A DNA stretch of 64,000 bases, taken from Leeuwenhoekiella aestuarii. Its GTDB lineage: Bacteria > Bacteroidota > Bacteroidia > Flavobacteriales > Flavobacteriaceae. How positions within the stretch are numbered: the stretch's first letter is position 1; every line of letters begins with the position of its first letter. The translations under genes and the position numbers were made by a program. The notes under the pieces were generated by a model. It was not told the origin of the DNA and did not search any database. It saw only the letters and a list, made by a program, of their open reading frames with translations. The stretch is from positions 62,001-126,000 of the forward strand of contig NZ_QOVJ01000006.1 of assembly GCF_004104055.1 (NCBI RefSeq), written 5' to 3'. Below, one piece after another: positions 47,141 through 64,000 of the stretch.

Positions 47141-48296
47141 CTTTTTTTATTATATATTCACTCTCTACCAAAGAAACTAATTGGGTTGATATATTTGCAT
47201 ATGAATGATTCTGCATATATAGGTTTCTATAATCATTTGATATCAAATTGACTTCGACATTTGTAAGCTTTTTTATGTAGGCACATATATTTTGAAAGTC
47301 TTCTTCATTTGAAAATTGAAAATCATGTTGAAGACTATTAAGCCTAGAAGTCATAGCTCCTACTCCATTGTGTATAATTATTCTTCCTGCAGCCATAGCC
47401 TCAACCCCGACTAATGGACCTGTCTCCCATTTAGATGCGATAATTACACAATGAATTTTTCTGTAAAATTGAATTAACTCATCATAATTTAAATGTCCTG
47501 TAAAGATAATTTTATTGTAACAAGCATATTGTTTTTTGAGCCTATTCAAATCAGGTCCTCTTCCAATAACATATAATTGATCATTCTTTGTTGATGATTT
47601 TAAAAACATCTTGATAACTAACTCTGTCTGTTTTATATGATAAACAGCTCCTATCACTGCAAATGTTTTTACAGTTGAGTTAAGTATCTCTAGTTTTAAA
47701 AAATCATTTTCTCTTGCTGTTGTCTGATCAAGATATCTTAATCCGACACCCAATTCTTGAACACTTTCCGTACAATTCTCTATAGAATGCAAAACTAATC
47801 CATCTACTTTTTTAAAAACAGGATTTAAAGCTTCTTCATTAATTTTATTAACTATTCTTACTAAACAAATTTTATTATATCGGTCAGTTAATTGTACAAA
47901 AGTCTGTTCATAATTTGAATGAAAGGATCCCATATAGATTAGAATATCACAGGAAACAAGCATCCTTTGTATTAATGCCTCAACTCGCTCACGATACCTA
48001 AAATGCTTTTTAATTACTTTATTTGCGACATAAAAGTAGGGACTTCCTTTAAAACCATTTTTGAGCCAAGCAAATAATGAGAAAAGTCGTATTGCTAAAG
48101 TTTCTTTATAGACCTCCAAATACAAAGACGTTACATTGGTTTTAAAAAAATCAAATACTTGGGATTTATTATCCAAATAAGAAGTAGAAAGTAATTGGAC
48201 TTCATACCCCGCCTCTTCTAGGGCTTTTGCAAAAATACCTGATTCGATTTCTCTTCCTCCAACTTGGCCTATAGGACCAGCAATTAAAATTTTCAT
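47133..48296 (-). CDS. GT4-family glycosyltransferase
   Basis: 387 residues. KILIAGPIGQVGGREIESGIF has the glycine loop of the acceptor domain. The donor half has TFAVIGAVYHIKQTELVIKMF, LYVIGRGPDLNRLKKQY and ASKWETGPLVGVEAMAAGRI with E-x7-E. A His-Ser-Asn stretch follows IYMGSFHSNYEQTF. It overlaps its neighbours by 4 and 8 bp. AT-rich composition sets this and the next genes apart from the 37-41 kb part. Confidence 0.88.
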   Translation of the reverse strand: MKILIAGPIGQVGGREIESGIFAKALEEAGYEVQLLSTSYLDNKSQVFDFFKTNVTSLYLEVYKETLAIRLFSLFAWLKNGFKGSPYFYVANKVIKKHFRYRERVEALIQRMLVSCDILIYMGSFHSNYEQTFVQLTDRYNKICLVRIVNKINEEALNPVFKKVDGLVLHSIENCTESVQELGVGLRYLDQTTARENDFLKLEILNSTVKTFAVIGAVYHIKQTELVIKMFLKSSTKNDQLYVIGRGPDLNRLKKQYACYNKIIFTGHLNYDELIQFYRKIHCVIIASKWETGPLVGVEAMAAGRIIIHNGVGAMTSRLNSLQHDFQFSNEEDFQNICAYIKKLTNVEVNLISNDYRNLYMQNHSYANISTQLVSLVESEYIIKKDA

Positions 48297-49210
48297 TTAA
48301 AAAACTTTCGACTATGTAGGTAAATTACAAACAAGAAACTGAAATAATACTTAAACTTAGTAATGACTTTTGTTTGCAAATCAACCGATGAATAAGATTC
48401 TAAATGATAATACAGAGACTTACTTTTTAACAATACAGCCATCCAACCAAAATATTTATAAAGTCGAGGAGTCATAAGCCCTTTTCTATTGAGTAAATCA
48501 ATAATGCTTTTTGAGGCTTTTATTTTTGATTGAACCCGTATAGGGTTGCCTGTATAAAACTCCCCAGTATTGGAATGATTATGTTTTCGCCCATAATAAA
48601 GCGTTTTATCAATTGAGATACCGTTATTCCTCTCGGTAAGTATATTAGTATAGCATTCCCACTCTTCAGCATACAAGAGTTCTTCCTTGAAACGAATATC
48701 GTTAAAGCACTCTTTTCGCCATAATACTGAACAAGAATTAAAGGGTAATTCCTGAGTAATTAACTTACTATAATGTTTTAAGCCTTGAATAGGAAAACTA
48801 TCTAATTTCTCAGAAGTGTCAAAAACCTTATCAAACTTCCCTTCGAAAACTTCCCGTCTATACCTACAAAACTTTAAATCTGGACGAGAGTGTATTTGAT
48901 CTACGCAAAGTTTCAAATTTTGCGGATGAACAATATCATCATCATCAAAAAAAATAACGTATTCACCCTTAGCATGGTCTAGTCCTTTATTTCTGCAACC
49001 CGGAAGTCCCTTTTTATAGTTATGGTTTCTTTGAAAATAACGTATTCTGGAATCTCGCAAATAAGGCATTAAAACTTGTAAAGTATTATCCTCGCTTCCG
49101 TCATCTACTATTAATAATTCCCAACTTTTATAAACTTGATTAAGTATACTCTGTATAGTTTCCTCAATGAAATGGGCTCTATTATAGGTAGCCATTATGA
49201 TAGAAACCAT
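48293..49210 (-). CDS. GT2-family glycosyltransferase
   Basis: 305 residues. The ATG at 49210 was chosen (MVSIIMATYNRAH), since the in-frame upstream codon at 49219 is only a TTG inside the previous gene; the ATG sits one base after that gene's TAG. WELLIVDDGSEDNTL, the metal site YVIFFDDDDIVHP and the base region AEEWECYTNIL are intact. SNTGEFYTGNP is a distinctive acceptor-side loop of unknown meaning. Confidence 0.91.
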   Translation of the reverse strand: MVSIIMATYNRAHFIEETIQSILNQVYKSWELLIVDDGSEDNTLQVLMPYLRDSRIRYFQRNHNYKKGLPGCRNKGLDHAKGEYVIFFDDDDIVHPQNLKLCVDQIHSRPDLKFCRYRREVFEGKFDKVFDTSEKLDSFPIQGLKHYSKLITQELPFNSCSVLWRKECFNDIRFKEELLYAEEWECYTNILTERNNGISIDKTLYYGRKHNHSNTGEFYTGNPIRVQSKIKASKSIIDLLNRKGLMTPRLYKYFGWMAVLLKSKSLYYHLESYSSVDLQTKVITKFKYYFSFLFVIYLHSRKFFK

Positions 49211-49211
49211 A

Positions 49212-50207
49212 CTATACAAAGTTTCCTTTTAAACATTTTATTAGAATGTTTAAGGTTGTTTTATTGCTAAAATTCACTCCAAATAAGATTTCTGGTGTTC
49301 GAAATATTATTCGGAAAAGATTAGGTATATTTTGCAATTCTTTTTTAGAAAGTATTATTTCTCTAATTCTTTTGATCAAAAAGTATTTTACCATTTCAAA
49401 ATCTTGGTTACTTTTATTACAATATGTCCTAAAGGTTTTTAGTATTACAGTTTTATTATCCCAGTAGAAAAAAAAACAGCGACTATTAGCTTTTGACAAA
49501 GAAGCTAAAAACTCTGCGATATTAGAAGGCCAGTCTTGTAATTTTGCTAAACTTAAGAACATCTTTAAAAGATTATTCTCATACTCAGATGAATAATCTT
49601 CATTGTACTGAATTGTGCTACTCAGACTTCTATTATGAATTCTATATTTATATAGATTTTGATTAACATGACCCATTTTAAAACTTGCAGAAGCTCTCAA
49701 CCAAAAATCATAATCCTCTAGTAGAAAAAGAGATTCGTCATAAGGCTCTAAGTACTTATAGCTTGTATGCTTATAAAGGAACGAGCAACCAACAACATTT
49801 CCAAATAAAAGATTTTCAATAGGTCCTGCTTTCATGTATCTTACATTATCACCTTCTTGATCTATTATATCATAATCTGAAAAGATAATGTCTAAATCTT
49901 TTTCCTTTAATTCCGTCAGCAAAACCTCTAAGCAGTTAGTTTTTAAAATGTTATCGTGAGAGGTCCATGTTAAGTAGCTACCCTGAGCTATTTTATGACC
50001 TAGGTTTAAAGAGGCTGGTAATTTGAGATTTGCACTGTTATTTATAATTTTAATTCTACTATCTTCTTTAGAATTTACCTCTAAAATATCTTTAGTTTTA
50101 TCTGAAGAAAAATCATTTACACAAATCAACTCAAAATTTTCATATGACTGCATAATAACACTGTTAAGAGCTTCCTGCAAATAGCTTTCCCCATTATATA
50201 TGGGCAT
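49212..50207 (-). CDS. GT2-family glycosyltransferase missing its first strand (in frame with upstream WbsX-like gene)
   Basis: 331 residues from the first ATG, which reads MPIYNGESYLQEALNS. In a normal GT2 about 6-8 residues (x-I-S-V-I) precede PIYNG and form the first beta strand. Here those codons exist upstream in the same frame (VIKQADLISVI at 50240-50208) but contain no ATG, GTG or TTG start. They are cut off by TAA at 50241-50243, which is the stop of the WbsX-like gene. FELICVNDFSSDKTKD, the SHDN metal region and EDYDFWLRASAS are otherwise typical. It either initiates at an odd codon, restarts at the ATG, or is a broken C-terminal half of a fusion. Confidence 0.8.
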   Translation of the reverse strand: MPIYNGESYLQEALNSVIMQSYENFELICVNDFSSDKTKDILEVNSKEDSRIKIINNSANLKLPASLNLGHKIAQGSYLTWTSHDNILKTNCLEVLLTELKEKDLDIIFSDYDIIDQEGDNVRYMKAGPIENLLFGNVVGCSFLYKHTSYKYLEPYDESLFLLEDYDFWLRASASFKMGHVNQNLYKYRIHNRSLSSTIQYNEDYSSEYENNLLKMFLSLAKLQDWPSNIAEFLASLSKANSRCFFFYWDNKTVILKTFRTYCNKSNQDFEMVKYFLIKRIREIILSKKELQNIPNLFRIIFRTPEILFGVNFSNKTTLNILIKCLKGNFV

Positions 50208-50240
50208 TATTACACTTATTAAATCTGCTTGTTTTATAAC

Positions 50241-51365
50241 TTAATTCTTCTGCGTTAACTTTAATTCTTTAATTACCTTTAAAAAAGAAATACCAAACTC
50301 TTGATCAGGCTCCAAATAATTACCTTCTGCCCATTCGTTCCAAGATTTAATAATAATTATTTGTGGATTTTCTGGTTTGCTTTTTAAAATCCGTATCATA
50401 TGATCCAAATGTTCTTTCCAGGCATTTGGTGTCGCATTCTTAAATATAAGGGACTTCTTTCCTGATCTTGGAGAGTTGTCCCAATTTGGAAAAGCGCAGG
50501 GAATATATTTTTTATGAGGTATATCTTGAGACAATAATTTCACCCCTTTTTTGTAATCAAATATTAAGGGGCGTCTTCGCTCGCCTATTTTATTGGTATA
50601 ACCAATGAGGCTTTTATACTTCATTTCAATTCTATTTAAAAACGAGCCATTTTTAAACCAAGTGTCTTGGTTGTATCTCATCCTTCTAAATATATCAATA
50701 CCTACTTGACCAAAAATAAATTCATTAGATTTAATGAAATCTATATTATTAACAATCGTAGCTACAAAATAAACTCCATTAAATCCTTCTTGAATAGCCC
50801 AAAAATTAAAAAGTTCTAGAAAATGCTCAAGATTTGGGATATCGTCTATTCGGTAAATATGAAACATGGGTTTGTTTCCTACTTTTATGTAGCGTTCATC
50901 CTTAAAAAAAGGTAATAAATAATCAAAATATTGTCTATAATCTAAGTCTTCCCCGTACTCCTGTTCTATGAGGATATCCGGACTTTCAACTCCATGCCAT
51001 ATTCCTTTCCAAGTTTCATTTGCCCAACAAAAACAAAAAGGAATCTTAACCTTTTTGTTTTCCAACATTTGCTCTGCTGGACGTTCAAGCAAATATTTAT
51101 CACCTCCAAACCAATACTGGTAATAGATAAAACCATCTATACCATAATCCAACGCTAGCTCTGATTGTTTCTCTTGAATTTCCGGGAGTCTTAAATCATA
51201 AAAGCCAAAATCTGCAGGTAATTTAGGTTGCTTATGTCTTCGAAATAATGGTTTTGCTTTAGCTACATTTGTCCACTCAGTGAAACCTTTACCCCACCAC
51301 TCATCATTTTCAGGAATTGGATGATATTGAGGTAAATAATAAGCTAGAAATCTTATTTCACTCAT
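50241..51365 (-). CDS. WbsX-like (GH99-like) glycan-biosynthesis protein
   Basis: 374 residues from the ATG at 51365 (MSEIRFLAYYLPQYH). An in-frame ATG at 51383 is possible, but the shorter one overlaps the previous gene by 8 bp, as is common here. The marks of the WbsX/GH99-like family (PF14307 type) are clear: YYLPQYHPIPENDEWWG, WTNVAKAKPLF, GIDGFIYYQYWF, FCFCWANETW and the C-terminal IIKSWNEWAEGNYLEP. The family occurs in O-antigen and capsule loci, where it is thought to act as a transferase or an endo-mannosidase-like processing enzyme. Its stop is in frame with the following GT2 gene. Confidence 0.9.
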   Translation of the reverse strand: MSEIRFLAYYLPQYHPIPENDEWWGKGFTEWTNVAKAKPLFRRHKQPKLPADFGFYDLRLPEIQEKQSELALDYGIDGFIYYQYWFGGDKYLLERPAEQMLENKKVKIPFCFCWANETWKGIWHGVESPDILIEQEYGEDLDYRQYFDYLLPFFKDERYIKVGNKPMFHIYRIDDIPNLEHFLELFNFWAIQEGFNGVYFVATIVNNIDFIKSNEFIFGQVGIDIFRRMRYNQDTWFKNGSFLNRIEMKYKSLIGYTNKIGERRRPLIFDYKKGVKLLSQDIPHKKYIPCAFPNWDNSPRSGKKSLIFKNATPNAWKEHLDHMIRILKSKPENPQIIIIKSWNEWAEGNYLEPDQEFGISFLKVIKELKLTQKN

Positions 51366-52200
51366 TTTTATGTAATTCGTCATACTTCGAAAATAGTGAT
51401 AAGTGCAAAAATTTTCTAAAAAACAGATCTAGTACAAATTTCTTACTGTTAAACAACTTAAACTGTCGATCTTTTAAATAGAACATCGTTTCTTCAAGGT
51501 GTTTAAAAGATCCGTAATGTTTTACAAAAAAATCAGCATGTTTTATACTTAAATAGTTTAACGAATATTCCACTTGCTCTTTCGTCATTGCATTCAACAT
51601 AGAGTTTGCTTTTTTTCTATAATAAAACAAAGCTTCCTTAATTTGAAAAACTTTACCTCCTCCTTTCAGTAAACCTATCCAGAAATCCCAATCTTCCCAG
51701 CCATAAATTAGATTTTTGTCATATCCTCCAACTTCAATCCAATCCACCTTTTTGAAAATTGCAGTACAGGGAATAATATTATTTCTACTTAATTTTCTTT
51801 GAGAGTATGAAGGTAATTCCCACATACCTTGATCATCTCCAAAAAACTCAGTTAACGTATAAACCAATTTAATGTCTAAATCATTGGAGAGGATTTCAAA
51901 TGATCTGGATATAAAATTTTTATTAATCCGATCATCCGCATCTAATGGTAATATATATTTCCTCGTTGCAAAAGTAATACCTGTATTACGTGCAGTACTT
52001 AGCCCCTTATTTTCTTGATTTATGAGAAAAAAACGATTATCATTGGCAATTAACTCTTCAATAATAATTTTAGAATGATCAGTGCTTCCGTCATTGACTA
52101 CAATACACTCCCAATCTGTATAATACTGATTTTTAACAGACTTTATGCAATCACTTATAAACTCTCCTTGATTATAACAAGGTATTATTATACTTACCAC
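51358..52200 (-). CDS. GT2-family glycosyltransferase
   Basis: 280 residues with a GTG start two bases after the previous stop; the next in-frame Met is far downstream. VSIIIPCYNQGEFISDCIKS, WECIVVNDGSTDHSKI, the metal site YILPLDADDRINKN and base motif WEDWDFWIGLLKGGG are complete. It is short for a GT2, with a basic C-terminal tail and no TM. It forms one coupled run with WbsX and the following GT2 genes. Confidence 0.91.
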   Translation of the reverse strand: MVSIIIPCYNQGEFISDCIKSVKNQYYTDWECIVVNDGSTDHSKIIIEELIANDNRFFLINQENKGLSTARNTGITFATRKYILPLDADDRINKNFISRSFEILSNDLDIKLVYTLTEFFGDDQGMWELPSYSQRKLSRNNIIPCTAIFKKVDWIEVGGYDKNLIYGWEDWDFWIGLLKGGGKVFQIKEALFYYRKKANSMLNAMTKEQVEYSLNYLSIKHADFFVKHYGSFKHLEETMFYLKDRQFKLFNSKKFVLDLFFRKFLHLSLFSKYDELHKNE

Positions 52201-63842: not shown

Positions 63843-63863
63843 TAAAGCTTATTCAAATTTGCA

Positions 63864-63871
63864 TACATTTG
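63864..63871 (+). promoter_or_regulatory. Candidate -7 box for the kpsF-like gene
   Basis: TACATTTG fits TAnnTTTG and would start transcription near 63878, about 50 bases before the TTG at 63927. No -33 TTG is evident. Confidence 0.35.
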
Positions 63872-63926
63872 TATTCTAAATATAATAAATTCTACAGCAC
63901 TAACAAACGGCTTAATCTTATATCTT

Positions 63927-64000
63927 TTGAATACTTACAAGCAGATTTTAGACAGCGCCAAGCGAACCATCACTTTGGAGCAAGAAGCTGTTGCCAATCT
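63927..64000 (+). CDS. kpsF: KpsF/GutQ-type arabinose-5-phosphate isomerase, 3' cut by window end
   Basis: Only about 24 codons are in the window. From a TTG at 63927 the frame reads NTYKQILDSAKRTITLEQ and continues EAVANL, which matches the conserved N-terminus of KpsF/GutQ (ILxxAKRTIxxExxAVxxL). These enzymes make D-arabinose-5-phosphate for Kdo in LPS. No in-frame ATG lies between the last stop (63843) and this codon, so the TTG start is likely. It is divergent from recQ. The family match rests on a short stretch. Confidence 0.65.
   Translation, partial: MNTYKQILDSAKRTITLEQEAVAN

Follow-up and report, generated by a model that had tools for sequence, protein, structure and literature searches.

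The window, the whole 64,000-nt stretch of Leeuwenhoekiella aestuarii DNA analysed here, carries on its minus strand a WbsX-like gene which is followed directly by a GT2 glycosyltransferase gene (Table 1). The upstream frame matches the Pfam profile Glyco_tran_WbsX (PF14307) over profile positions 2-350 of 350 (E = 1.4e-124), and the downstream frame matches Glycos_transf_2 (PF00535; E = 1.3e-29) from residue 9, counted from the GTT codon that adjoins the WbsX stop. The score of the latter match, 103.7 bits as compared to a cut-off of 23.3, together with Foldseek matches of an AlphaFold2 model (mean pLDDT 63.9) to the GT-A enzymes 5hea, 6p61 and SpsA, places the protein in the GT2 family. Reading of the minus strand confirmed that, as originally predicted, the two genes share one frame, and that exactly 11 codons, not one of them ATG, GTG or TTG, separate the TAA of WbsX (50243-50241) from the first ATG of the GT2 frame (50207). 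Positions 50243-50205 read TAA GTT ATA AAA CAA GCA GAT TTA ATA AGT GTA ATA ATG, the four codons ahead of the TAA being ACG CAG AAG AAT (TQKN), and the start-free stretch thus encodes ...DLISVI directly before MPIYNG. The position to which WbsX had been extended in the original prediction, 51365, is indeed an ATG of this gene, but the second one, the first being located at 51383. The junctions within the operon are tight, with 2 nt before the GTG of the upstream GT2, an overlap at the start of WbsX, 3 nt between its stop and the ATA, and 1 nt before the ATG of the next gene. The GTG of the upstream GT2 is placed directly at the first strand of that protein (GTG GTA AGT ATA), and GTG ATA AGT is found at this position in G011, a single-contig genome of the same genus.

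Table 1. Coordinates of the genes and sites discussed (window positions unless a genome and contig are given; G000 is the genome of the window)
Feature	Position	Strand	Remarks
Upstream GT2, GTG start	51358..52200	-	GTG 2 nt past preceding TAA, kept in G011; end overlaps WbsX
WbsX-like glycosyltransferase gene	50241..51383	-	380 aa from ATG 51383; second ATG 51365; PF14307
TAA stop of WbsX	50241..50243	-	Kept in G011
ATA, proposed GT2 start codon	50235..50237	-	3 nt past TAA; kept in G011
GT2 glycosyltransferase gene, from ATA	49212..50237	-	341 aa plus stop TAG; PF00535, GT-A fold matches
Beta strand 1 codons (LISVIMP, model residues 6-12)	50202..50222	-	AlphaFold2 model
ATG, first standard start codon in GT2 frame	50205..50207	-	Start there would drop residues 1-10
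Downstream GT2 gene	48293..49210	-	ATG 1 nt past TAG of the proposed AUA-started GT2
infC	G000:C3:604090-604590 (L096)		11 orthologues, L095 and L097-L106
RmlD-like gene	G000:C3:446031-446876 (L178)		12 orthologues, L179-L190

Conservation of the junction and starts of homologous GT2 genes

In G011 the junction reads TAA GTT ATA AAA AAA ACA GAT TTA ATT AGT ATA ATA ATG. The two genomes are 86% identical in DNA over the 701 bases of the junction region, and the encoded proteins are 73% (GT2) and 87% (WbsX) identical, with a dN/dS of 0.17 for the GT2 (dN 0.144, dS 0.851) and of 0.10 for WbsX. The ATA is accordingly retained, in one other species, in a gene under purifying selection, and the retention of the junction in G011 coupled with the dN/dS of the GT2 indicates that the arrangement of the two genes has persisted and that the GT2 is a working gene. 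The four residues ahead of the WbsX stop vary (TQKN in the window versus SLKG in G011). Of the changes between the two species in the 11 codons before ATG 50207 just one is synonymous, which means that these codons do not of themselves prove coding. Of the 13 genomes of the genus, two encode a WbsX of this type, namely that of the window and G011, and these were also the sole genomes with a full-length DNA match to the junction region among the 397 genomes of a draw from the family (the window's own included), in which the next best GT2 was 45% identical. The pair being carried by one other genome, its conservation rests on two sequences, which counts against AUA. A further search for the pair returned a 49-base plasmid match, which lies inside a WbsX-type gene, and a GT2 search of named contigs yielded four relatives, the nearest named ones being from Salinimicrobium and Flavobacterium. 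WbsX was absent by tblastn from the other GT2 loci that were fetched, the flanks of which are short.

In the AlphaFold2 model of the GT2 read from the ATA, which was built on a four-sequence alignment, the first beta strand comprises residues 6-12, the first ten residues having a pLDDT of 85; this agrees with the earlier assignment of DLISVI to the first strand of the GT2 fold. Initiation at ATG 50207 (residue 11) would, according to this model, cost the protein most of strand 1. For comparison the best GT2 frame was taken at each of 45 loci, 43 of which gave a match (L014 and L019 gave none). A standard start precedes the first codon of strand 1 in 39 of these 43 (the nearest being ATG in 27, TTG in nine and GTG in three, although some of the TTG codons may be due to chance in AT-rich DNA), and in a further two (L065 and L067) the strand itself opens with ATG. 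No standard start is present up to this codon in the loci of the window and G011, and in the window's GT2 a start-free span thus lies between an in-frame stop and coding sequence which the protein needs. In seven loci (L017, L049, L051-L054 and L056) an ATG is positioned exactly four residues ahead of the strand, the same spacing as that of the ATA. A run of 11 start-free codons is, taken alone, not rare; that the junction is no product of chance is argued by the presence of the needed strand in this stretch, the starts in 41 of the 43 GT2 loci and the recurrence in a second species.

Start context and rival readings

A start-context matrix was derived from 414 ATG start sites in sequence amounting to approximately 0.39 Mb (G000) and 0.40 Mb (G011). 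The start sites of the window's genome carry no Shine-Dalgarno signal and are A-rich and G-poor at positions -14 to -10, a composition which, taken with the nearest named relatives of the GT2, suggests a member of the Bacteroidota close to the Flavobacteriaceae; initiation without Shine-Dalgarno sites is described for the Bacteroidetes in PMC6847099, which also reports A as favourable at -3 and -6 in F. johnsoniae. At the ATA these two positions are G and T, which counts against AUA. The ATA scored 4.96 in the window (73rd percentile of real starts) and 8.22 in G011 (96th percentile), as against 0.71 for the 95th percentile of internal ATG codons (n = 160). In a scan of 120 positions it ranked fourth in the window and second in G011; that the matrix does not single it out counts against AUA. 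Local folding at the ATA (-1.8/-1.9 kcal/mol) is close to the start-site median of -1.7. Context, then, favours the ATA a little without deciding the matter.

Translation from ATG 50207, which is probably what automatic annotation would report, would give a GT2 of 331 aa that lacks most of strand 1 and does not contain QADLISVIMPIYNG. This ATG is the first standard start of the frame, is present in G011 as well, and has the start-like context of an average start (54th percentile in the window, 53rd in G011). Against it stand the removal of residues 6-10 of strand 1 in the model, the solved relatives 6p61 and 5hea, which align upstream of it (from residues 2 and 5, respectively, of the frame read from GTT), and a local folding of -6.3/-3.8 kcal/mol, stronger than that at the ATA. 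Furthermore, the residue that corresponds to ATG 50207 is mostly not methionine in the 43 loci (Leu in 27, Thr in eight, Met in five and Ile in three), and the three Met loci other than the window and G011 (L058, L063 and L065) likewise have a standard start, located upstream of strand 1 or at its first codon. A start at ATG 50207 is in our view unlikely. It is highly improbable that the GTT adjoining the stop (50240-50238) initiates translation, as this codon, in frame and kept in G011 though it is, has two mismatches to AUG as compared to one for AUA, and scored at -0.70 and 1.51, the 9th and 26th percentiles of real starts in the window and G011, respectively.

A WbsX-GT2 fusion that had been cut by a recent nonsense change was put forward in the original prediction, a sequencing error at the TAA was named there as a possible refutation, and a dead GT2 gene was additionally considered; what speaks for any of these is nothing but the shared frame. 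The fusion was rejected as the stop is common to G011, is preceded by a complete WbsX profile, and has no fused counterpart in the 27 WbsX-bearing genomes found among 397. WbsX is a stand-alone frame in all 27 genomes that bear it among the 397 of the one family draw (E <= 1e-20), the open frames being 359-395 aa in length (of the 27 matches two contain one stop and five span just about the first 210 residues), and the search for a fused form in relatives which had been proposed as a check gave none in these 27. A sequencing error was discarded since the same TAA is followed by a likewise start-free stretch in G011, and the dead gene since the GT2 frame is intact and has the low dN/dS given above. 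On sequence grounds WbsX ends naturally at the TAA, and a split of recent or artefactual origin, or a dead GT2, is barely credible. Partial readthrough of the TAA, by which WbsX and a WbsX-GT2 fusion would both be made, had likewise been proposed; it would accord with the shared frame, the lack of a further stop between the domains and the retention of the junction in G011. However, two neighbouring genes share a frame in one third of cases by chance, no fused frame occurs in the 27 WbsX matches, the window and G011 do not have the same last four WbsX residues, and readthrough by itself yields no free GT2. Readthrough, for which positive support did not emerge and which is not needed to account for the junction, is thus very unlikely.

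Missing standard starts elsewhere in the genus

The genus contains further genes in which a standard start is lacking. The start of infC is AUU in E. coli, and in Leeuwenhoekiella no ATG, GTG or TTG is present where IF3 begins in any of the 12 genomes (of 13) that gave a match; all 12 instead have ATA GCA AT[A/T], and two have a later ATG. Across the phylum, where 60 of 61 genomes gave a match, 23 of the best 30 infC loci have no standard start before the domain. An RmlD-like gene (PF04321, E = 2.3e-17) is present in all 13 genomes of the genus, and in each of these no ATG, GTG or TTG occurs before the strand LILGASGF, while ATC or ATT is found a few codons upstream; in five genomes a TTG encodes the first Leu of the strand. 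This gene likely has a genus-wide AUC/AUU start. The recurrence of near-cognate starts in the genus, at infC and the RmlD-like gene, makes AUA more credible for the GT2.

A survey of starts covered 334 pairs of orthologues from G000 and G011, was read by eye with no statistical test, and included some short, probably spurious frames. In a first pass 45 pairs had seven or more codons ahead of the first standard start, with half or more of these codons conserved. In a second pass 79 pairs shared eight or more codons ahead of the later of their two first starts, and ten of these pairs also had no fewer than two synonymous changes and six identical residues among the last ten. These ten include dnaX, infC, the RmlD-like gene and an RluA-like frame, along with others that are short or resemble leaders. 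The GT2, with its one synonymous change, falls outside them, so that the case for its start rests on the homologues. Several other observations were made in the course of the survey. The frame that we term RluA-like from a motif has a TTG start in the window's genome (G000:C3:500553-501284, L121) and 39 aligned codons without a standard start in G011 (G011:C1:2501552-2502271, L143). In what we take to be dnaX (G000:C3:549218-549910, L123; G011:C1:2454227-2454934) there is a conserved run of ten A, shortly past which one frame terminates while another goes on, a layout like that of programmed frameshifting or slippage. Within the window, 25 of 27 codons are conserved with respect to G011 before the first TTG of the stretch at 63846-64000 (G000:C6:125846 onward), in a frame divergent from a RecQ-like gene; this conserved stretch looks like a promoter and leader, not coding sequence.

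A probable AUA start and its proposed coupling to termination of WbsX

WbsX and the GT2 are most likely separate genes of one glycan operon, the GT2 probably starting at AUA (50237-50235), which would be reached after termination of WbsX. Initiation at a non-standard codon was the last of three readings offered in the original prediction, and is the best supported of these. The AUA would be decoded by the initiator fMet-tRNA, giving the GT2 the N-terminus MKQADLISVIMPIYNG... and (M)KQADLISVIMPIYNGESYLQ as the expected N-terminal peptide. Owing to the position of the AUA just 3 nt past the WbsX stop, within the few nucleotides of an upstream stop that are typical of termination-reinitiation, ribosomes that finish WbsX would most likely re-initiate there, and this would offset the weakness of the codon in a genome with no Shine-Dalgarno signal at its starts. 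Such re-initiation, at a low rate, would lower the dose of the GT2. The use of AUA, its coupling to WbsX termination and the lowered dose are all three what we infer from the features of the locus.

The likeness of the junction to coupled gene pairs in other operons, as described in PMC6728339 and PMC10666635, lies in a start a few nucleotides from an upstream stop; the GT2 differs in its AUA codon and in its distance of +3 nt, the commonest coupled distances in PMC10666635 being -4 and -1 nt. Re-initiation is there reported as strongly distance-dependent, a gap of +2 nt having cost 5, 20 and 70% in three E. coli pairs. According to PMC13009471, S. aureus uses AUA starts in infC, ccpN and citZ, with ccpN and citZ AUA reporters giving approximately 10% of the AUG level in poor medium and ccpN up to 30% in rich medium. 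As would be the case for the GT2, AUA in ccpN and citZ stands on an ordinary protein and lowers output, but the non-AUG starts of S. aureus, these two among them, are reported in the same paper with extended Shine-Dalgarno sites, a signal that the starts of the window's genome do not display. An ATT start in E. coli yielded approximately 0.3% of the output from ATG (Hecht et al. 2017, cited in PMC10666635), and output of the GT2 could accordingly be very low. A near parallel is infC, in which a rare near-cognate codon is kept across species in place of ATG, with a similar arrangement in Leeuwenhoekiella. In E. coli infC is subject to autoregulation by IF3 (PMC13009471), whereas for the GT2 there is no known reason for such control; infC differs, moreover, in that the AUA of the GT2 comes directly after an upstream stop.

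Starts at AUA and the coupling of stop and start are each known, and their combination on a glycan gene of a genome without Shine-Dalgarno signals would represent a modest addition; among the matches listed in our literature searches there was no AUA start for a Bacteroidetes gene. It is conceivable, albeit doubtful, that the genus maintains AUA, AUC and AUU starts as a regular device in a small set of genes beyond infC, the GT2 and the RmlD-like gene among them, and that the AUA at the junction is a selected, IF3-dependent throttle which keeps the transferase scarce. If this were true, re-initiating ribosomes would accept AUA at a low, IF3-dependent rate, and the scarcity of the transferase would be tied to the level of IF3. 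Gene finders that are limited to ATG, GTG and TTG would clip the GT2 by ten residues, and with them most of a core strand, which could make a live transferase appear broken, and the RmlD-like gene suggests that the genus holds further such genes. The junction between WbsX and the GT2 offers a natural test of whether re-initiation close to a stop relaxes the choice of start codon where Shine-Dalgarno sites are not used.
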